Translations under genes and position numbers: made by a program | Assembly: GCA_022825135.1 (NCBI GenBank) | Contig: JAJDYN010000021.1 | Span: 1-64,000, forward strand | Length of the DNA: 64,000 bases | Direction of reading: 5' to 3' | DNA from: Gemmatimonadota bacterium | Lineage (GTDB): Bacteria; Gemmatimonadota; Gemmatimonadetes; Longimicrobiales; Gaopeijiaceae | Notes under the pieces: generated by a model | What the model saw: only the letters and a program-made list of their open reading frames with translations | What the model was told of the DNA's origin: nothing | The model's database searches: none | In this document: one piece after another, positions 1 through 7,980 of the stretch | How positions within the stretch are numbered: position 1 is the first letter of the stretch | Layout of the letters: each line of letters begins with the position of its first letter

Positions 1-2
1 TC

Positions 3-719
3 CCCGCCCTGTGGGCCGGCCTGGCCGGTGCCGGCCGCGCGAGCGTCCGCCGCGATCTGGAAGCGGCCCTGCAGGAAGAACAGATCGCCCGCACAGTGCG
101 GGTCGGCACCGACGTTGAGGCCGCCTTCCACGACGCTCTCGGAGCCGGCGCGGGCATCGTGGTGGTGGCCGGTACCGGCTCGGTCGTGCTGGGGGCGGCG
201 CAAGACGGCCGCCGCCTGCAGGTGGGCGGATGGGGCGGGGTGATGGGCGACGAAGGGAGCGGCTATCACATCGGCGTGTCGGCCCTGCGGGCGATCGCCA
301 GGGCCGCCGACGGCCGCGCCCCCGCGACCGCCCTCACCGCCGCCGTGCTGGACTCCCTCGCGCTGAACCGCCCGCGCGACCTGCCCGCCTGGGCGGAATC
401 CGCCACCAAGGCCGAGATCGCCGCTCTCGCGCCCCTGGCGATCCGCGCCGCCCACTCCGGCGACGACGCCGCGCAAACCGTCGTCCGGCGCGCGCTCGCC
501 GCCCTCGGCGATCAGCTCACCGCCGCCATCCGCCAGCTCTTCCCATCCGCGCCCGACAACCGGCCTCCCGTCGCTCTGACCGGCGGCCTGATCTCCCCGG
601 ATGGTCCGCTGCGCGACGACCTGGAGAAACTGGTTGCCTCGACCGGTGGCCGTCTGCTCCCGCGCGCCGTCACCCCGGAGCGCGGCGCCGCCCGCCTGGC
701 CCTCACCCTCCCGGATTGA
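3..719 (+). CDS. BadF/BadG/BcrA/BcrD-family ATPase, probable N-acetylglucosamine-type kinase (5' partial)
   Basis: The reading frame is open to the left edge, so the true start lies outside the window; the GTG at 96 is internal. The visible part is the C-terminal ASKHA-fold half. It carries a phosphate-binding loop (AGTGSVVLG), the family-typical GGWGGVMGDEGSGYHIG block and a second adenosine-type motif, ALTGGL, near the C-terminus. Family members include N-acetylglucosamine kinases and activators of 2-hydroxyacyl-CoA dehydratases. The absence of a visible Cys cluster and the GDEGSG block favour the sugar-kinase branch, but the substrate is inferred. The gene ends about 100 bases before the sigma-54 control region of the first hsp20. 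Confidence 0.8.
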   Translation, partial: PALWAGLAGAGRASVRRDLEAALQEEQIARTVRVGTDVEAAFHDALGAGAGIVVVAGTGSVVLGAAQDGRRLQVGGWGGVMGDEGSGYHIGVSALRAIARAADGRAPATALTAAVLDSLALNRPRDLPAWAESATKAEIAALAPLAIRAAHSGDDAAQTVVRRALAALGDQLTAAIRQLFPSAPDNRPPVALTGGLISPDGPLRDDLEKLVASTGGRLLPRAVTPERGAARLALTLPD

Positions 720-822
720 GCAACCGCCCGTCCATCGGCGCCCGATCCATGTCGCCGGCGTGCCCCTCCACCCGCGCGTCACATCCTCCACCCGGGCGCC
801 ACATCCCCCGGCCGCCGGCACC

Positions 823-919
823 TGACAGAATGGCAGACTCGTCCGCGCCGCCTTCTCCCGCGACCTGACATTTCGTCATGCCCATGGCCTGCAGTTCGTT
901 GCCGTCTGCCATTCTGGCA
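823..919 (+). promoter_or_regulatory. Triple palindromic upstream activator sites of hsp20 copy 1
   Basis: Three copies of a 13-base palindrome with consensus TGnCA-TTC-TGnCA lie at 823-835 (reverse orientation, TGACAGAATGGCA), 866-878 (TGACATTTCGTCA) and 907-919 (TGCCATTCTGGCA). The last sits in a perfect 8+8 inverted repeat, 904-922. Steps between sites are 43 and 41 bases, close to four helical turns. The same three sites with identical steps precede the second hsp20 gene. Such arrays upstream of a -24/-12 promoter are typical binding sites of an NtrC-type activator; which activator is unknown. Confidence 0.7.
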
Positions 920-929
920 GACATGCCCA

Positions 930-943
930 GGCACGCTCCCTGC
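930..943 (+). promoter_or_regulatory. Sigma-54 (-24/-12) promoter of hsp20 copy 1
   Basis: The sequence GGCACGCTCCCTGC has the invariant GG-N10-GC of RpoN promoters and the consensus-like GGCACG block. It lies 91 bases before the hsp20 ATG. The same 14 bases recur exactly at 6160-6173 before the second hsp20. Transcription would begin roughly 12 bases after the GC (estimate). Confidence 0.75.
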
Positions 944-1033
944 CCCTGCGCACGGTCGCACGCGCTCGGTGTTCAGGCGTCGGGAGCCTGACGGCGCGGC
1001 ATGTCAATCACCCTGAACCGAATGGAGGGAAAA

Positions 1034-1483
1034 ATGACGACCATGGCCAAGTATCGTTCGCTTTCGCCCACGCAGGTGCTGAGGGCCTTCAACTCCGCCT
1101 TTCCCAGCGGTCCATCCTTCCCGTTCGGGTCCTTCGTCAACACGGACTGGGTACCGCCGGTGAACGTCGCGGAGATGGCCGACTCCATCCTCGTGACTGC
1201 CGAACTCCCCGGGGTGTCGCCCGACGACGTCGACATCCAGGTCGAGGAGAACGTGCTCACCATCAGCGGGGAGAAGCACGAAGAGCGCGTCGAAGGGGAT
1301 GAGGAGCGCCACATCCACATCTCCGAGCGGATCGCGGGGAGCTTCAGCCGTTCCTTCACCCTCCCGCGCAAGGTGGACGTGGAGGGCATTACCGCCGAGT
1401 TCGGCGACGGGCTGCTCCGGGTGAGCGTCCCCAAGGCTCCCGAGACCCGCGCCCGCAGGATCGAGGTGAAGGCGCGCGGCTGA
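1034..1483 (+). CDS. Small heat-shock protein, Hsp20/alpha-crystallin family (copy 1)
   Basis: 149 residues. An ATP-independent holdase that binds unfolding proteins in the cytoplasm. The alpha-crystallin domain spans about residues 40-140 with the conserved AELPGVSPDDVDIQVE strand region, the FGDGLLRVSVPK motif and a C-terminal I-x-V tail (RIEVKA). The ATG at 1034 was chosen over the upstream ATG at 1001 because GGAGGG precedes it and because the paralogue at 6266 starts at the same residue. The paralogue has equal length, and differences are mostly conservative. The gene is monocistronic, flanked by a sigma-54 promoter and a strong hairpin, so RpoN-dependent stress control is likely (inference). 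Confidence 0.93.
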   Translation: MTTMAKYRSLSPTQVLRAFNSAFPSGPSFPFGSFVNTDWVPPVNVAEMADSILVTAELPGVSPDDVDIQVEENVLTISGEKHEERVEGDEERHIHISERIAGSFSRSFTLPRKVDVEGITAEFGDGLLRVSVPKAPETRARRIEVKARG

Positions 1484-1511
1484 TCGGCTTCGCGGCACAC
1501 AACCTTCGTCA

Positions 1512-1538
1512 GGCGGACCCGGTCCTTCCGGGTCCGCC
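1512..1538 (+). terminator. Rho-independent-like terminator after hsp20 copy 1
   Basis: An 11-bp perfect stem, GGCGGACCCGG with CCGGGTCCGCC, closes a 5-base loop and is followed by a short GTTTCC tail. The core CGGACCCGG...CCGGGTCCG stem recurs in the terminator of the second hsp20. Confidence 0.7.
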
Positions 1539-1635
1539 GTTTCCATGTACACCCACGGAACCGCTCCTCCAGGGTTGGCGAGGGCGCCGGGCTCGGCCGG
1601 GGATCGGCCCTCTCCGCGCCGTCCCCTGCTCGCGT

Positions 1636-1769
1636 GGAGGCTTGACCATGTCGCCGGGTAACGGTCTATTCCCGCCATGATCAAGCCGGACTCCTCGTCC
1701 GCCGGGGCCTTCCGCTCCGGGCGGGATTCGCGGTTGGAGCGGCCGCACCTCCCTCTTCGGGCCCCGTGA
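1636..1769 (+). promoter_or_regulatory. Possible leader with two overlapping mini-ORFs before thrA
   Basis: GGAGG at 1636-1640 sits 7 bases before ATG 1648, which opens a 10-codon ORF ending at 1680. That stop overlaps ATG 1677 (ATGA), which opens a 30-codon ORF ending at 1769. Its stop in turn overlaps the GTG start of the aspartokinase gene (GTGA at 1766). The aspartokinase GTG itself lacks a convincing Shine-Dalgarno sequence, so re-initiation from this chain is conceivable. The peptides have no Thr, Ile or Met runs, so classical thr attenuation is not supported. Chance overlaps are common in GC-rich DNA. Confidence 0.25.
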
Positions 1770-4321
1770 CCTCCACTCCGGCGCTCGCTCCTCCCGAGGC
1801 AGATCGACCGGTCGCGCCTCCGATTCGGGTGATGAAGTTCGGGGGGACCTCGGTCGGAAGCACCGCGCGCATCCGGCGCGTCGTCCGTCTTGTCGCCGGT
1901 GCCCGGGCCACCTCCACCCCTGTCGTGGTCGTCTCCGCGGTGCGCGGAACGACCGACCGGTTGGTCGAGGTCGCCGAACTTGCCGGACGGGGGGACGCCG
2001 GGCATGCGTCGGTGACGCGGGAAATCGCGGAGATGCACCGGGAGCTGCTCCACGCCCTCGCTCCGGCCGACGAAGCGCCGGGCCTCGCCCTCCGCCTCGA
2101 TGCGGCGATGGATGACCTCCGGCGCCTGGCGAACGGGGCTCAGCTTCTCGGCGAATGCACCCTCCGGACTCGCGACTGGATGCTCTCCTTCGGGGAACGG
2201 CTCTCCTCGATGCTCATCGCCGCCTGCATGCGCTCCCATGGAATCGCCGCCGTCGACGTGGACGCGAGGGAGCTTCTCCGCACCGACACCCGCTTCGGCG
2301 CGGCGCGGGTGGATCGGCAGAGGTCGCGGGAGCTGGTGCGCGCGCGGCTTCCCGGAGACGCCGGCATCCCGGTCGTCACCGGGTTCATCGCCTCGACGGC
2401 AAAAGGGGAGACGACCACGCTGGGCCGGGGCGCGTCCGACTACACGGCTACCCTTCTCGGCTCGATGCTGGGCGCGGCGGAGGTCGAGATCTGGACGGAC
2501 GTGGACGGGGTGCTCACCGCGGATCCGCAGGCCGTGCCCGAGGCCGCCCCGTTGCGCGAGATCACCTACGCGGAGCTCCTCGAGCTCGCCCATTTCGGGG
2601 CGCAGGTGATCTGCCCTCCGGCGGTGGAGCCTGCCCGGAGCGCCGGGATGCGGCTGAGAATCCGCAGCACGCTCGATCCCTCCCTCCCTGGGACGCTGGT
2701 CGTGACTTCGGTTCAGCGGGACCCCCTTCGGCCGGTGCGCGGGATATCCGCGACCAGGGACGTGGCGCTGATCCGGCTCGCCGGGGTCGAGACGGTCGGC
2801 GCTACGGAGGCCTCGCAACGGATCTTCCGTGCGCTCCGAGTCGCCGACGTGGATTCGCTTCTCTTCACGCAGGACTCGGGCGCGCACGCCTTGTCCTTCG
2901 CGGTCAGGGGTGCCGACGCGGAGCGGGCGCGGGCTGCTCTGGGGGCTGAGTTCCGGAGGGAGCGGGAGTCGCGGCTCGTGCGCGACCCGACCGTCGAGCA
3001 GGGGTTTTCGATTCTCGCGGTTGTGGGAGAGGGGATGCGGTACACGCCCGGCGTCTCGGGAAAACTCTTCTCGGCCCTGGGAGCCGCGAGGGTCAATGTG
3101 CACGCCATCGCCCAGGGATCCTCCGAGCGCAACATCTCATGGGTCGTTAACGCAGGGCAGGAGGGCGTCGCGCTCCGCACCGTCCACCGCGCCTTCTTCA
3201 GCCCGCCGGACGAACTCGAGCCCGTCCGCATCCTGGTGCTCGGGGCGGGTGTCGTCGGCGGAGCCTTCCTCGACCAGCTCGCCGCAAACGGGGACGACGC
3301 GATGCGTGCGCACGGGATCCAGCCCGTCCTGGTGGGGATCTCGAACAGCCGGACAGCCGCAACCGACCTCGAGGGCCTGATGGCGGGCCGGTGGCGGTCG
3401 CACCTCGAGGGGGGCCGCGGCGATCCCGTCCGGGCCTTCGAGTCCGTCTGGACGGGCGACCCGCTCGTCGTCGTCGACTGCACCGCAAGCGCGACCGTCG
3501 CGGCGAGGTACGCGGACTACCTCCGGGCCGGTGCCGCCGTGGTCACGGCGAACAAGATTCCTCTCTCCGGGCCGATCGAGGAGTACGCGACGCTCATGAG
3601 CCTCGGCGGGCGCGGGGGCGGCCTCCACCACGGGACGACCGTGGGCGCCGGCCTTCCGATGGTGCGCATGATCGCCGAACTCCGGCGGAGCGGCGACACC
3701 GTCATCTCCCTCGAGGGGACTCTGTCGGGGACGCTCACTTTCCTGATGGATCAGGTCAGCCGCGGGCGGCGGTTCAGCTCCGCGGTCGAGGAAGCCCGGC
3801 GGAGAGGGATCTCCGAGCCGGATCCGAGGGAGGATCTGGGCCTCAGGGATGTGGTCCGAAAACTCGTCATCCTCGCACGGACGGCGGGGATGCGCATGGA
3901 ACCCTCCGATGTCGAGGTCGAACCGATTCTCCCGGAGCGCCTTCTCCGGCCCGGCCCGGTCGGTGAGTTCATCGAGGGGCTCTCCGGGCTCGACGCCGAG
4001 ATGGCTGAGCGGGCCCGGGCGGCGGCCGCGCAAGGAGGGCGGCTGGTGTGCCGGGCACGGGTGGCGCCGGGGGCGGCCTCCGTCCGACTGGAGGTGGTGG
4101 CCGCGGATGAGCCCGTCGCGCGCACCCGCGGCACCGAGAACCTGCTCGTCATCCGCTCTCGATGGTACGCCGATCATCCCATGGTGATTCAGGGTCCCGG
4201 AGCGGGGCCCGAGGTCACCGCGGCCGGGCTCATGACCGACCTGGTGGCGGCCGCCGGCCGGGTTGCCGGCCGGGCCGGCCAGAGTCAACGGCGAAGCACG
4301 GGGCCGGCTTCTGCAGGCTGA
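1766..4321 (+). CDS. thrA: Bifunctional aspartate kinase / homoserine dehydrogenase
   Basis: 851 residues (E. coli ThrA has 820). It catalyses the first and third steps of the aspartate-to-threonine/methionine pathway. The kinase domain starts with the diagnostic KFGGTSVG motif at about residue 24 and runs to about 300. ACT-type regulatory repeats follow (about 320-475). The homoserine dehydrogenase then shows a Rossmann motif (VLGAGVVGGAF), VDCTASATVAA, TANKIPLSG, GTTVGAGLPMV and EPDPREDL. Both active parts look intact. GTG 1766 was taken as start; ATG 1832 directly before the kinase motif is an alternative, and neither has a strong ribosome-binding site. Feedback control through the ACT domains is expected from the family. 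Confidence 0.93.
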   Translation: MTSTPALAPPEADRPVAPPIRVMKFGGTSVGSTARIRRVVRLVAGARATSTPVVVVSAVRGTTDRLVEVAELAGRGDAGHASVTREIAEMHRELLHALAPADEAPGLALRLDAAMDDLRRLANGAQLLGECTLRTRDWMLSFGERLSSMLIAACMRSHGIAAVDVDARELLRTDTRFGAARVDRQRSRELVRARLPGDAGIPVVTGFIASTAKGETTTLGRGASDYTATLLGSMLGAAEVEIWTDVDGVLTADPQAVPEAAPLREITYAELLELAHFGAQVICPPAVEPARSAGMRLRIRSTLDPSLPGTLVVTSVQRDPLRPVRGISATRDVALIRLAGVETVGATEASQRIFRALRVADVDSLLFTQDSGAHALSFAVRGADAERARAALGAEFRRERESRLVRDPTVEQGFSILAVVGEGMRYTPGVSGKLFSALGAARVNVHAIAQGSSERNISWVVNAGQEGVALRTVHRAFFSPPDELEPVRILVLGAGVVGGAFLDQLAANGDDAMRAHGIQPVLVGISNSRTAATDLEGLMAGRWRSHLEGGRGDPVRAFESVWTGDPLVVVDCTASATVAARYADYLRAGAAVVTANKIPLSGPIEEYATLMSLGGRGGGLHHGTTVGAGLPMVRMIAELRRSGDTVISLEGTLSGTLTFLMDQVSRGRRFSSAVEEARRRGISEPDPREDLGLRDVVRKLVILARTAGMRMEPSDVEVEPILPERLLRPGPVGEFIEGLSGLDAEMAERARAAAAQGGRLVCRARVAPGAASVRLEVVAADEPVARTRGTENLLVIRSRWYADHPMVIQGPGAGPEVTAAGLMTDLVAAAGRVAGRAGQSQRRSTGPASAG

Positions 4322-4646
4322 TCGCCTTGATTCGGATCCGGAGTCGATCGGATCGCGCACGAACCCACCAGACCCTCCCAGTCGCGACTTCGACGATACC
4401 CTCCCTAGGCCGGGATCGACCTTTACGTGATCACGCCCTTTCAGCCCGGTCCTGTGTTCCGCGCACACTTGGCCAAAGCGTGATAATCTGCGATGCCGTT
4501 TGGCGTTGCGAGCTACACACGTGACAGGTACTCTGGACGGTCGTACGGGACCGACGGGTATGGCGGGGGGGTGAGCGGGCGACGGTGCCCGTCGAGCCTG
4601 CGCCGGCTGAGAATGGCGTCCCGTATCTGAAGGTGGTTGACTCAAG
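4322..4646 (+). other. Intergenic region without recognised gene
   Basis: This 325-base gap separates thrA from the leucine-rich-repeat gene. It is less GC-biased around 4480-4500 (contains TGATAATCTG), which could hold a -10 element, but no correctly spaced -35 box is evident. A GGTGG sequence near its end (4632-4638) could be the ribosome-binding site of the next gene. I see no tRNA, terminator with T-run or conserved RNA. Confidence 0.4.
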
Positions 4647-6011
4647 ATGACTGCCAGCCGATCTGGCGAGAGTCCGGCCGAATGCCCGGCCGGGAAAAGC
4701 AGCCCCTCGATGGCTGCCCGAGGCCTCATTCCTGTTCTGGCGCTGTGCGTCGGGCTGTCGTGTGTGGATTACGGGACCGCCCCGGGCAGCACCCCGGAGA
4801 CGCCTGACGATCCGTCGCAGCCGCCGCCGGCAGACAGCGCGTCGGACCGTGCCGCGCTGACTGCGCTCTACGAGGCGACCGGCGGTCCCGACTGGGAGAA
4901 CCGCACGGGCTGGGCGTCCGCCGCGCCGGTTTCGAATTGGCACGGGGTCCGAACGAATGGCGCGGGACGGGTGCTTGAGTTGAGCCTGCGCGACAACGCG
5001 CTGACCGGCCCGATCCCGCCGGAGCTTGGCAACCTCACCGCCCTGCAGGTGCTGGACCTGAATGGCAACGCCCTGGATGGCCCGATTCCGCCGGAACTCG
5101 GCAATCTCACCGCGCTGCAGCGCCTGTTTCTTCGCGGTAACGCGCTGACCGGCCCGATTCCGCCGGAGCTGGGCAACCTCACAGCAGCGATCGTTGTGTT
5201 GTTGGATGGCAACGCTCTGGAGGGCCCGATCCCGCCGGAGCTGGGGAGGCTGGCCGGTCTACGGAATCTGGGTCTGTCCGGCAACAGCCTGACAGGTTCG
5301 ATCCCGCCGGAGCTGGGAAGGCTGCCCCGCGCCATGCAATTCCTGGCACTGGCTCGCAACAGCCTGACGGGGCCGATCCCGCCGGAGTTGGGGAGGCTGG
5401 AAGGCCTGTACGGTTTGTACCTGTCCGGCAACGCCCTGGAGGGCCCGATGCCGTCGAGCCTTCTGGGGCTGGATGAGCTGCTGACCTTCGACTTCCAGGA
5501 CAACATGGGCCTGTGCGCACCGGGCACGGCGGATTTCGCTGCCTGGCTCGAGGGGATCCGACTCAGGTCGACGGGACGGGGCGCCAGTGGTCCGTTCTGC
5601 AACGAGACGGACCAGGCCGTGCTCGAACTGCTGTTCAGAGCGACGAGCGGTGGAGACTGGGCAAACGCAACCGGCTGGCGCGGAGGTCCCGTTCTGGCCG
5701 AGTGGCACGGGATCCGGGCCGATACGCTTGGCCGAGCCGTCGCGCTCGATCTCGCCGGCAATGGACTGGTGGGCCAGCTGCCGGAGCGACTCGGCGAGCT
5801 CGCACACGTCGTCGAACTGGATGTCGGCGACAACCCTGGCCTGGGGGGTCCGCTTCCGCTTTCCCTTGCCGACCTGTCGCTCAGCGCGTTCCGCTATGCG
5901 GGCACGGAGCTGTGCGTCCCGGCCAACACGGCCTTCCGCGAGTGGCTGGAGGGCATTTCGTCACACCAGGGGACGGGCATGGAATGCCCGCCTCCGTCGG
6001 GTAGCGAGTAG
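4647..6011 (+). CDS. Leucine-rich-repeat lipoprotein, two-module
   Basis: 454 residues. A signal peptide ends at Cys39 in a VGLSC lipobox-like sequence, followed by a Pro/Asp-rich linker. There are two related modules. Each opens with a helical cap (AALTALYEATGGPDW; AVLELLFRATSGGDW), contains repeats of the plant-type form NxLxGxIPxELGxLxxL, and ends with LCxPxxxxFxxWLEGI and a downstream Cys. Module 1 has seven 24-residue repeats beginning at Asn117; module 2 has about two degenerate ones. Such proteins are usually displayed on the cell surface and mediate protein or glycan binding; the ligand is unknown. ATG 4647 has GGTGG upstream; ATG 4710 would give a shorter signal peptide and is also possible. 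Confidence 0.8.
   Translation: MTASRSGESPAECPAGKSSPSMAARGLIPVLALCVGLSCVDYGTAPGSTPETPDDPSQPPPADSASDRAALTALYEATGGPDWENRTGWASAAPVSNWHGVRTNGAGRVLELSLRDNALTGPIPPELGNLTALQVLDLNGNALDGPIPPELGNLTALQRLFLRGNALTGPIPPELGNLTAAIVVLLDGNALEGPIPPELGRLAGLRNLGLSGNSLTGSIPPELGRLPRAMQFLALARNSLTGPIPPELGRLEGLYGLYLSGNALEGPMPSSLLGLDELLTFDFQDNMGLCAPGTADFAAWLEGIRLRSTGRGASGPFCNETDQAVLELLFRATSGGDWANATGWRGGPVLAEWHGIRADTLGRAVALDLAGNGLVGQLPERLGELAHVVELDVGDNPGLGGPLPLSLADLSLSAFRYAGTELCVPANTAFREWLEGISSHQGTGMECPPPSGSE
4995..5453 (+). repeat. 72-base coding repeats (LRR units)
   Basis: Seven consecutive units of 72 bases encode the N-x-L-x-G-P-I-P-P-E-L-G pattern. The GGCCCGATTCCGCCGGAGCT-type core is strongly conserved at DNA level between units, suggesting recent internal amplification or recombination. 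Confidence 0.8.
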
Positions 6012-6051
6012 CGTTCCCCGCGTTCCCGTTGCATCCTCCGTGGCCACCACC

Positions 6052-6148
6052 TGACAGAATGGCAGATCCGCCTGCGCACTCCACCCCGCCGGGCTGACAT
6101 TCTGTCATGCCAATCTGCCGCAACTTGTTGTCGTCAGACATTTTGGCA
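6052..6148 (+). promoter_or_regulatory. Triple palindromic upstream activator sites of hsp20 copy 2
   Basis: Sites matching TGnCA-TTC-TGnCA lie at 6052-6064 (TGACAGAATGGCA, reverse orientation), 6095-6107 (TGACATTCTGTCA, a perfect palindrome) and 6136-6148 (AGACATTTTGGCA, imperfect). Steps of 43 and 41 bases are identical to those upstream of hsp20 copy 1, although the spacer sequences differ. Conservation of sites and spacing against diverged spacers indicates selection for protein binding. Confidence 0.7.
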
Positions 6149-6159
6149 GACTCGAAGCT

Positions 6160-6173
6160 GGCACGCTCCCTGC
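6160..6173 (+). promoter_or_regulatory. Sigma-54 (-24/-12) promoter of hsp20 copy 2
   Basis: GGCACGCTCCCTGC, GG-N10-GC, identical to 930-943; here it is preceded by T, giving TGGCACG, the full RpoN -24 consensus. It is 93 bases before the ATG of the second hsp20. Confidence 0.78.
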
Positions 6174-6265
6174 CCCTGCCCAAGGCCGGACGCGCACGCC
6201 GGGTTCGGGCATCAGCAGGCCCGGCAACGCGAATTCGGTCACAAGAGACTCAGTGGAGGAAACAC

Positions 6266-6715
6266 ATGACGACCATCGCCAAGTACCGTTCGCTCTCGCC
6301 CTCGCAGGTGCTGCGGGCCTTCAACTCCGCCTTTCCGGGCGGCTCGGCCTTCCCCTTCGGGGCCTTCATCAACACGGACTGGGTTCCGCCGGTCAACGTC
6401 GCGGAGACGGCGGACTCGATCCTCGTGACCACGGAACTCCCGGGTGTGTCGCCCGACGATGTCGAGATCCAGGTCGAGGAGAACGTGCTCACGATCCGCG
6501 GCGAGAAGCATGAGGAGCGCGAAGAGAAGGATACCGAGCGCCACATGCACATCTCCGAGCGGATCACCGGGAGCTTCAGCCGCTCCTTCACCCTGCCGCG
6601 CAAGGTGGACGTCGAGGGCATCGACGCCGACTTCGGCAACGGGGTGCTCAAGGTCAGCGTCCCCAAGGCGCCGGAGACCCGCGCCCGCAGGATCGAGGTG
6701 AAGGCGCGCGCCTGA
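6266..6715 (+). CDS. Small heat-shock protein, Hsp20/alpha-crystallin family (copy 2)
   Basis: 149 residues, a close paralogue of the protein encoded at 1034-1483, with the same N-terminus (MTT-x-AKYRSLSPxQVLRAFNSAFP). The alpha-crystallin domain keeps TELPGVSPDDVEIQVE, FGNGVLKVSVPK and the C-terminal RIEVKA anchor. ATG 6266 is preceded by GGAGG (6255-6259); an in-frame ATG at 6107 falls inside the operator/promoter region and was rejected. Own sigma-54 promoter and terminator; no co-transcribed neighbour. Confidence 0.93.
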   Translation: MTTIAKYRSLSPSQVLRAFNSAFPGGSAFPFGAFINTDWVPPVNVAETADSILVTTELPGVSPDDVEIQVEENVLTIRGEKHEEREEKDTERHMHISERITGSFSRSFTLPRKVDVEGIDADFGNGVLKVSVPKAPETRARRIEVKARA

Positions 6716-6744
6716 CCGCAGCGCTTCACACCGCAGGACCGAAT

Positions 6745-6773
6745 CGGACCCGGTATCCGCCGGGTCCGTTTTT
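6745..6773 (+). terminator. Rho-independent terminator after hsp20 copy 2
   Basis: Stem CGGACCCGG / CCGGGTCCG with a 6-base loop, followed by five T residues (6769-6773). The arms match the core of the terminator after hsp20 copy 1. Confidence 0.8.
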
Positions 6774-6936
6774 CGTGTGCTCGATTCTGCCTCGGCGGCC
6801 GCCACGTACTACCATGTTTGATGGCATCCCGGGGGATGCTACCTTGGTGGCGATGTTTCTCCGTTTCCGCGCGCGCGGAAACCGCGTCTTCGATTCCCGG
6901 TCCCGCCGGCGCCCGTAACCCGAGAAGAACCCGCGC

Positions 6937-7980
6937 ATGACCCACGCCAGCACCCGGCCCCCGCCGGGATCGCGCGTCTTCAGCGGAATGCAGCCCAGCG
7001 GCGAAGCCCACCTCGGCAACTACCTGGGTGCGCTGCGCCAGTGGGCCGCCATGCAGGAAGACTACGACTGCATCTACTGCATCGTGGACCAGCACGCCAT
7101 CACGGGCCCCTACGAGCCCGGAGCGCTCCCCGGGGCGGTCTTCGATCTCGCGATCAGTTTTCTGGCCTCGGGCCTCGATCCCGAGCGCTCCATCATCTTC
7201 GTGCAGTCCGACGTCCCCGAGCACACCGAGCTGAGCTGGCTCTTCAACTCGGTGGCGCCCATCGGCGACCTGGAGCGAATGATCCAGTTCAAGGAGAAAT
7301 CCGAGCGCATGGAGTCGGTGCCGGTGGGGCTCCTCAACTACCCCGTGCTGCAGGCGGCGGACATCCTCATCTACCGCGCCGACGTGGTGCCCGTGGGGGA
7401 GGACCAGCGCCAGCACCTCGAGCTGACCCGGGACATCGCGCGCAAGTGGAATGCCCGCTTCGGCAAGTACCTGCCGGAACCCCAGCCCTACATTCCGCGC
7501 GCGGGCCGGATCGTGGGGCTGGACGGCCGGTCCAAGATGAGCAAGTCGCTCGGCAACACGGTCGGCATCCTCGACGAACCCGACGAGATCCGCAGGCGCG
7601 TGCGCACGGCGGTCACCGACCCCGCGCGCATCCGCAAGACCGATCCCGGGCGCCCCGAGGTCTGCAACGTCTATTCGCTGCACGAGCATTTCGCGGACGG
7701 CGAGCGGCTTGACGACATCGCCAACCAGTGCCGCACGGCGCAGCGCGGGTGCGTCCAGTGCAAGGGCATGCTGGCCGGGGAGATCGACGAGGCCTTCGCC
7801 CCGATGCGCGAGGTGGCCGCGCACTATCGCGCGCATCCGGAGGAGGTGCTCCGGATTCTCGCCGATGGAGCACGGAGGGCGGGAGCCATCGCCCGGGAGA
7901 CCATGGCGGAGGTCCGGTCGCGCATGGGGCTCGACTGGAAGCGCAACGCGCGAGCACTGACGGAGGAAACGGAGTCATGA
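6937..7980 (+). CDS. trpS: Tryptophan--tRNA ligase
   Basis: 347 residues, slightly longer than the usual 330. Class I synthetase charging tRNA-Trp in the cytoplasm. The HIGH-type signature is HLGN (His25-Asn28), the KMSKS loop is at 200-204, and the family block AADILIYRADVVPVGEDQRQ is present. The extra residues are an N-terminal Pro-rich stretch. Its stop codon overlaps the ATG of the downstream aldolase gene (ATGA), so the two are translationally coupled. Confidence 0.96.
   Translation: MTHASTRPPPGSRVFSGMQPSGEAHLGNYLGALRQWAAMQEDYDCIYCIVDQHAITGPYEPGALPGAVFDLAISFLASGLDPERSIIFVQSDVPEHTELSWLFNSVAPIGDLERMIQFKEKSERMESVPVGLLNYPVLQAADILIYRADVVPVGEDQRQHLELTRDIARKWNARFGKYLPEPQPYIPRAGRIVGLDGRSKMSKSLGNTVGILDEPDEIRRRVRTAVTDPARIRKTDPGRPEVCNVYSLHEHFADGERLDDIANQCRTAQRGCVQCKGMLAGEIDEAFAPMREVAAHYRAHPEEVLRILADGARRAGAIARETMAEVRSRMGLDWKRNARALTEETES

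Follow-up and report, generated by a model that had tools for sequence, protein, structure and literature searches.

Textbook heat-shock control in bacteria relies on sigma-32, CIRCE/HrcA, or HspR. Sigma-54, whose promoters follow the consensus TGGCAC-N5-TTGC, is better known from nitrogen metabolism. In Myxococcus, the HsfA/HsfB system described by Ueki and Inouye in 2002 is of the NtrC type and reportedly acts on lonD. HsfA and HsfB constitute a two-component pair (PMC9548883). In E. coli, the small heat-shock gene ibpB possesses a sigma-54 promoter beside a sigma-32 promoter (Kuczynska-Wisnik 2001, cited in PMC4316790), and the hrcA-grpE-dnaK operon of Chlamydia is preceded by tandem sigma66-sigma54 promoters (PMC8762339). 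For Planctomycetota and Bacteroidota, DnaK, GroEL, IbpA, and GrpE have been predicted to be under sigma-54 (PMC12316311); a word search of the main text of that study found no Gemmatimonad* entry, and no operator or activator was seen for the predicted chaperone regulons. No paper on sigma-54 heat-shock control in Gemmatimonadota was found among the matches listed in a search of the open-licence literature. Individual heat-shock genes under sigma-54 thus have precedents; a phylum-wide version with a linked activator looks new.

The window, i.e., the whole stretch of 64,000 nucleotides that was analysed, opens contig C28 in a 93%-complete genome (G000) of 3.54 Mb, and it contains both of the Hsp20 genes found in this genome. 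Each is preceded by an element that we interpret, with a probability of about 0.74, as a sigma-54 promoter of a chaperone regulon, predicted to be run by an NtrC-family activator that is encoded in the dnaK cluster and would act at phased palindromes. The interpretation draws on the sequence evidence of -24/-12 sites, palindromes, phasing, conservation, rpoN, and the activator gene with its synteny. Such a locus would share with E. coli ibpB a small heat-shock gene under a sigma-54 promoter, but ibpB is one gene as PMC4316790 presents it, whereas Hsp20 and dnaK would be involved here across the phylum, along with palindromes in phase and an activator gene linked to dnaK. Likewise, the dnaK operon of Chlamydia has a sigma-54 promoter, as predicted for dnaK here, but its activator is AtoC and rpoN falls on heat shock (PMC8762339). 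The features in the window are as follows.

822..836, plus strand: distal palindrome, copy 1, CTGACAGAATGGCAG
865..879, plus strand: middle palindrome, copy 1, 7/8 letters
906..920, plus strand: proximal palindrome, copy 1, separated from the downstream -24 GG by 9 bases
929..944, plus strand: predicted sigma-54 -24/-12 element AGGCACGCTCCCTGCC, copy 1
1034..1483, plus strand: Hsp20 gene, copy 1
6051..6065, plus strand: distal palindrome, copy 2
6094..6108, plus strand: middle palindrome, copy 2
6135..6149, plus strand: proximal palindrome, copy 2, 7/8 letters, separated from the downstream -24 GG by 10 bases
6159..6174, plus strand: predicted sigma-54 -24/-12 element TGGCACGCTCCCTGCC, copy 2
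6266..6715, plus strand: Hsp20 gene, copy 2, before trpS

The initial annotation had reported an identical 14-base element before each hsp20, three 13-base palindromes upstream of it with equal steps in both copies, and diverged spacers, all of which were recovered. The element GGCACGCTCCCTGC is located at 930-943 and 6160-6173, shows GG-N10-GC within the sigma-54 consensus in both copies, and precedes the ATG by 104 bases in copy 1 and 106 bases in copy 2. Palindromic 13-mers of the form TGNCA-N3-TGNCA start at 823, 866, and 907 and at 6052, 6095, and 6136, with steps of 43 and then 41 bases in either copy. Four of the six match TGNCANNNTGNCA at all 8 fixed letters; those at 866 and 6136 match at 7/8, giving one imperfect palindrome per copy. 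The upstream regions are identical at 74 of 109 ungapped positions, and the two promoter copies are duplicates with partly diverged spacers. Copy 2 probably occupies the original place and copy 1 is probably the duplicate, because four same-genus loci (L041, L044-L046, read by eye) have only one hsp20, which stands with this promoter after a thrA-like gene and is followed by trpS where this was read. In the window, a leucine-rich-repeat protein gene at 4647-6011 separates hsp20 copy 2 from the thrA-like gene. In L041 and L044-L046, over the bases read, the end of thrA is followed directly by the hsp20 promoter.

Exact 13-mers are enriched tenfold in the 64-kb window, with four found vs. 0.40 expected and none of 100 shuffles reaching four, and three sites of at least 7/8 letters arose in the 334-base upstream region in only one of 2000 single-base shuffles. 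The plus strand of the window holds 17 sites of at least 7/8 letters, three and four of which fall within the two hsp20 regions. Taken by itself, the -24/-12 string occurs in the window no more often than expected by chance (2 vs. 1.78 expected; 55/100 shuffles); its weight comes from position and from conservation in relatives, not from frequency. Counts do not clearly argue against random occurrence of the palindromes across the genome, which the initial annotation had named as evidence against its proposal: 25 exact 15-mers are present genome-wide, but allowing one mismatch produces no excess (77 vs. 90 for the reversed control). Eight of the 25 exact 15-mers are found at hsp20, dnaK, clpB, and lon, and 17 elsewhere, including sites at argR, argF, a uvrA-like gene, and mobile-element ends. 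Palindrome pairs also occur at other genes of this genome (C39:69407/69438, C41:272288/272319, C41:337787/337839, C2:30729-30806), with steps of 21, 31, 42, or 52 bases, near multiples of the helical turn.

Conservation was assessed in 96 genomes of the same family. A loose -24/-12 scan matched everywhere in this G+C-rich DNA and was replaced by scoring beside palindromes, with weights set by the analyst on the sigma-54 consensus (maximum 15.2). Among 107 Hsp20 matches in 77 genomes, 105 upstream regions were read; the two left out were a partial match and one lying at the beginning of a contig. The sigma-54 assignment at Hsp20 held up in these relatives: 98/105 regions contain a site scoring at least 12.4 (of 15.2), compared with 6.6% of shuffles, and the seven others score 11.5-12.2. 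A palindrome of at least 7/8 letters lies 5-130 bases above the -24 element in 68 of these 98 promoters vs. 3.75 expected. The 108 sites in this range follow a 10.5-base period (R=0.76), as compared with R=0.49 at 10 and 11, 0.02 at 9.5, and 0.15 at 11.5. The 96 genomes were also scanned with the combined pattern TGGCAG-N8..22-GGCAC-N6-TGC. The scan of relatives for palindromes beside the promoter element, suggested at the outset, had a divided outcome: 51 of 85 matches, from 49 genomes, precede Hsp20 by no more than 450 bases in the orientation of the gene, and their gaps are without exception 9 (6), 10 (9), 19 (7), or 20 (29) bases, while the other 34 are scattered over 8-22; overall, however, 85 matches are fewer than the 244 of the reversed control. 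Since the pattern is rarer than its control, only position and spacing carry weight. The family genomes are related, and counts at Hsp20 and dnaK are therefore not independent events. As judged from these gaps, the palindromes at Hsp20 face one side of the helix relative to the -24 element. The promoter-proximal palindrome, which had been flagged as an unusual place for an enhancer, is conserved and helically phased relative to -24; in the window its centre would fall near -42 or -43.

The same elements also appear to be common to dnaK and, with weaker evidence, to lon and clpB, which goes beyond the original claim for Hsp20. The family has 90 dnaK matches in 89 genomes, the best 30 of which were read (8 same-genus, 22 outside the genus). 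All 30 regions, including 22/22 outside the genus, contain a sigma-54 site of at least 12.5 (shuffles reaching 12.4: 6.1%). The eight same-genus regions have palindromes at gaps of 18/19 and 49/50; in G000 itself, two palindromes stand 31 bases apart with GGGCACGAACGTTGCT 19 bases below. Outside the genus, a palindrome is found within 130 bases of -24 in 18/22 regions, with 13 sites at 48-51. Only 2/22 regions have a 7/8 palindrome closer to -24, at no more than 25 bases. A period test without preference for 10.5 yielded R values of 0.86 at 10.0, 0.77 at 10.5, and 0.76 at 8 for dnaK. Beyond the family, 40 dnaK regions were taken from 115 genomes with a match: 28/40 score at least 12.4 vs. 4% of shuffles, and 25/40 have a palindrome at a gap of 8-11, 19, or 29-31, a count made without a palindrome control. 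The gap is exactly 8 in 9/10 regions of one of these families (f4) and in 6/14 of another (f5), the latter having weak -24/-12 elements of which 4/14 reach 12.4.

The sigma factor itself was found: rpoN, whose absence would have spoken against the proposal, is present in G000 with all three Pfam domains and in 89/96 family genomes. Of the seven genomes lacking an rpoN match, four (G052, G055, G076, G082) keep the promoters. A dedicated activator had also been postulated, and synteny with dnaK, together with elimination in one genome (G028, see below), points to a candidate. Its gene lies at C19:29848-31518 on the minus strand in G000, with orthologues in 90/96 genomes at E 1e-90 and a further copy in G087 that is incomplete at a contig end; it was not found in G063 (98% complete), nor at the expected place there, and the promoters of that genome are intact. 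Activator and dnaK are both present in 86 genomes and share a contig in 60, where they are arranged tail-to-tail in 60/60 cases at a distance of 8.1-14.4 kb in 59 and 58.9 kb in one. Gene names around the activator, read by eye from translations, comprise tig, clpP, clpX, engB, gcvT, argF, hslU, and hslV in G000, joined by lon and a DegP-like gene in L160 and L161. The nearest activator relatives are contained in L160-L163, named Gemmatimonadota records whose kinship places the genomes in this phylum and the loci used out of 80 returned by a contig scan with the N-terminal alignment, which mostly gave other enhancer-binding proteins because its patterns fell in the AAA+ part.

The candidate harbors an AAA+ sigma-54 interaction domain (PF00158, E 9.9e-69) with the GAFTGA motif and a C-terminal, conserved Fis-type helix-turn-helix (PF02954, E 1e-13), whereas a receiver domain (PF00072) gave no match at E 0.001. 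In an AlphaFold model of the L160 relative (mean pLDDT 50.1), residues 1-120 are usable (pLDDT 63-88 per block) and the rest is poor; in the modelled N-terminal part, strands and helices succeed one another as in a receiver. T or S takes the place of the phospho-aspartate in the aligned column in 16/16 sequences, and the protein of G000 itself has an Asp one residue after it. The receiver with a phospho-acceptor Asp that marks a response regulator is not present. Foldseek with this model ranked NtrX and NtrC1 first and also returned VpsR (E to 4e-16); with so much of the model being poor, TM-scores are only ~0.2-0.3. All three share the receiver-like, AAA+, and helix-turn-helix order with the candidate. 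NtrX and NtrC1 keep the phospho-Asp, whereas the candidate lacks it and, at low confidence, has a conserved helical stretch in a long linker between AAA+ and helix-turn-helix. It resembles Myxococcus HsfA/HsfB, which reportedly acts on a heat-shock protease gene, in being of the NtrC type. In contrast to the HsfA/HsfB pair, which PMC9548883 describes as two-component, the acceptor Asp is missing in all 16 sequences, and inspection of the cluster by eye revealed no kinase gene. The expectation that the activator's own promoter would carry the sites proved right only in part: an exact palindrome (C19:34200) stands between hslU and argF, upstream of the argF-gcvT-activator gene run, but no phased palindrome plus -24/-12 was found at the activator gene. 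The dnaK-linked NtrC-family protein is the best activator candidate for the palindrome promoters.

Exact palindromes also occur at clpB in G000 and G026 (two each) and in G022 (three); G004 has none. No -24/-12 element was recognisable at clpB in these four genera. The arrays concerned (L102:4374-4427, L356, L357) have steps of 39, 42, and 52 bases and no sigma-54 site. A fourth upstream region from relatives, taken as clpB (L359, G014), proved to belong to a clpC-like gene and is devoid of palindromes. Because the clpB arrays stand without -24/-12, the palindrome is, as far as these regions indicate, not always paired with sigma-54. At lon (L108, one genome), three palindromes are present, with the weaker element AGGCCCGATTCGTGCA (12.2) ~30 bases below one of them, which is only suggestive of shared promoter elements. 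The clpB arrays of G000, G022, and G026, along with the pairs at other genes of G000, speak for the alternative that survives best. In this view the promoters are sigma-54-dependent, the palindromes are the sites of a different, co-operatively binding regulator (repressor or co-activator) with further targets among sigma-70 genes, clpB for example, and the linked enhancer-binding protein needs no specific site. We consider this unlikely, given that it is the -24 element with which the palindromes are in phase, that palindromes accompany dnaK promoters in other families (the 25/40 counted without a palindrome control), and that the linked activator has a conserved Fis-type helix-turn-helix.

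Still less probable is activation by another enhancer-binding protein, e.g., the NtrX-like response regulator in L003. Such proteins are available, since G000 encodes six full enhancer-binding proteins and the L003 protein has a canonical receiver, but elimination argues for the dnaK-linked one: in G028 (95% complete; 18 genomes were checked), it is the only full enhancer-binding protein found, and dnaK there carries the predicted sigma-54 site TGGCATGGACATTGCA. As G028 has no Hsp20 match, it speaks for dnaK only.

A number of palindromes are associated with mobile DNA. In six genomes, related tyrosine-recombinase-like genes have their ends ~90-100 bases away from CTGCCATTTTGGCAG or from a variant differing by one letter (L029:2400-3610; L042/L075, L043/L076, L049/L079, L066/L080, L287); five of the six cases are directly upstream of hsp20, two of these five being near-identical. 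A seventh, partial integrase match (L316) has no palindrome near it, and same-genus loci without an integrase carry the same palindrome after thrA. A stretch of ~75 bases resembling CGCAGATCGTGCAGT...TTGAACTTA...CTTCTTGCCGTGATT ends at the palindrome in L014, L016, L028, L048, and, reversed, L021. The heat-shock palindrome may serve mobile elements as an attachment site, and the ~75-base stretch is perhaps the other end of such elements. That the palindromes are nothing but attachment or target sites, unrelated to control, would accommodate these integrase genes and shared ends; it is nonetheless very improbable, as integrases were matched at only a handful of the loci compared whereas 68/98 Hsp20 promoters have palindromes phased with -24.

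Among established heat-shock control routes, CIRCE/HrcA, HspR/HAIR, and known RNA thermometers left no recognisable trace. The best CIRCE (TTAGCACTC-N9-GAGTGCTAA) matches at hsp20, dnaK, and clpB have 8 or 9 mismatches of 18 (8 at hsp20 and dnaK), and the best HAIR (CTTGAGT-N7-ACTCAAG) matches at these genes have 6-7 of 14. No known Rfam RNA thermometer matched window positions 1-7000, where the search returned a sub-threshold SorY match at 6702-6774. HrcA is present in 90/96 genomes, and groE may therefore be under CIRCE control. Coincidence, with the genes run by sigma-70/RpoH or by this HrcA, is hardly credible in view of sigma-54 sites in 98/105 Hsp20 and 30/30 dnaK regions and the lack of CIRCE or HAIR at hsp20, dnaK, and clpB.

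The initial proposal of sigma-54 control by a dedicated activator is thus largely supported by the comparative evidence and may be widened to dnaK. According to the preferred reading, in which the dnaK-linked protein activates sigma-54 promoters, RNA polymerase with RpoN would wait closed at -24/-12. The NtrC-family AAA+ activator from the dnaK/tig/clpPX/hslUV cluster would bind CTGNCA-N3-TGNCAG arrays that share a helix face with -24, the proximal centre lying at about -42 or -53 and the distal centres another 3 to 10 turns upstream. Assembled on these arrays, it would drive open-complex formation under protein-folding stress, the signal presumably being heat or unfolded protein. Because the acceptor Asp is missing, the activator may be controlled by protein contact rather than phosphorylation, e.g., by release from a chaperone. 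A more specific version, in which a non-phosphorylated NtrC-type activator from the proteostasis cluster senses chaperone load and assembles beside polymerase on face-locked palindromes, with no looping and throughout the phylum, is tentative and in our estimate falls somewhat short of an even chance.

A sigma-54 route for both Hsp20 and DnaK would be an unusual form of heat-shock control in a little-studied phylum. The 10.5-base phasing beside polymerase at Hsp20 lets the minimal distance of an enhancer-binding protein be tested. If the reading is true, chaperone synthesis would be coupled to a promoter that is driven by ATP and remains closed before activation, and a phylum controlling Hsp20 and DnaK through RpoN and a dedicated AAA+ activator would represent a separate solution to heat shock.
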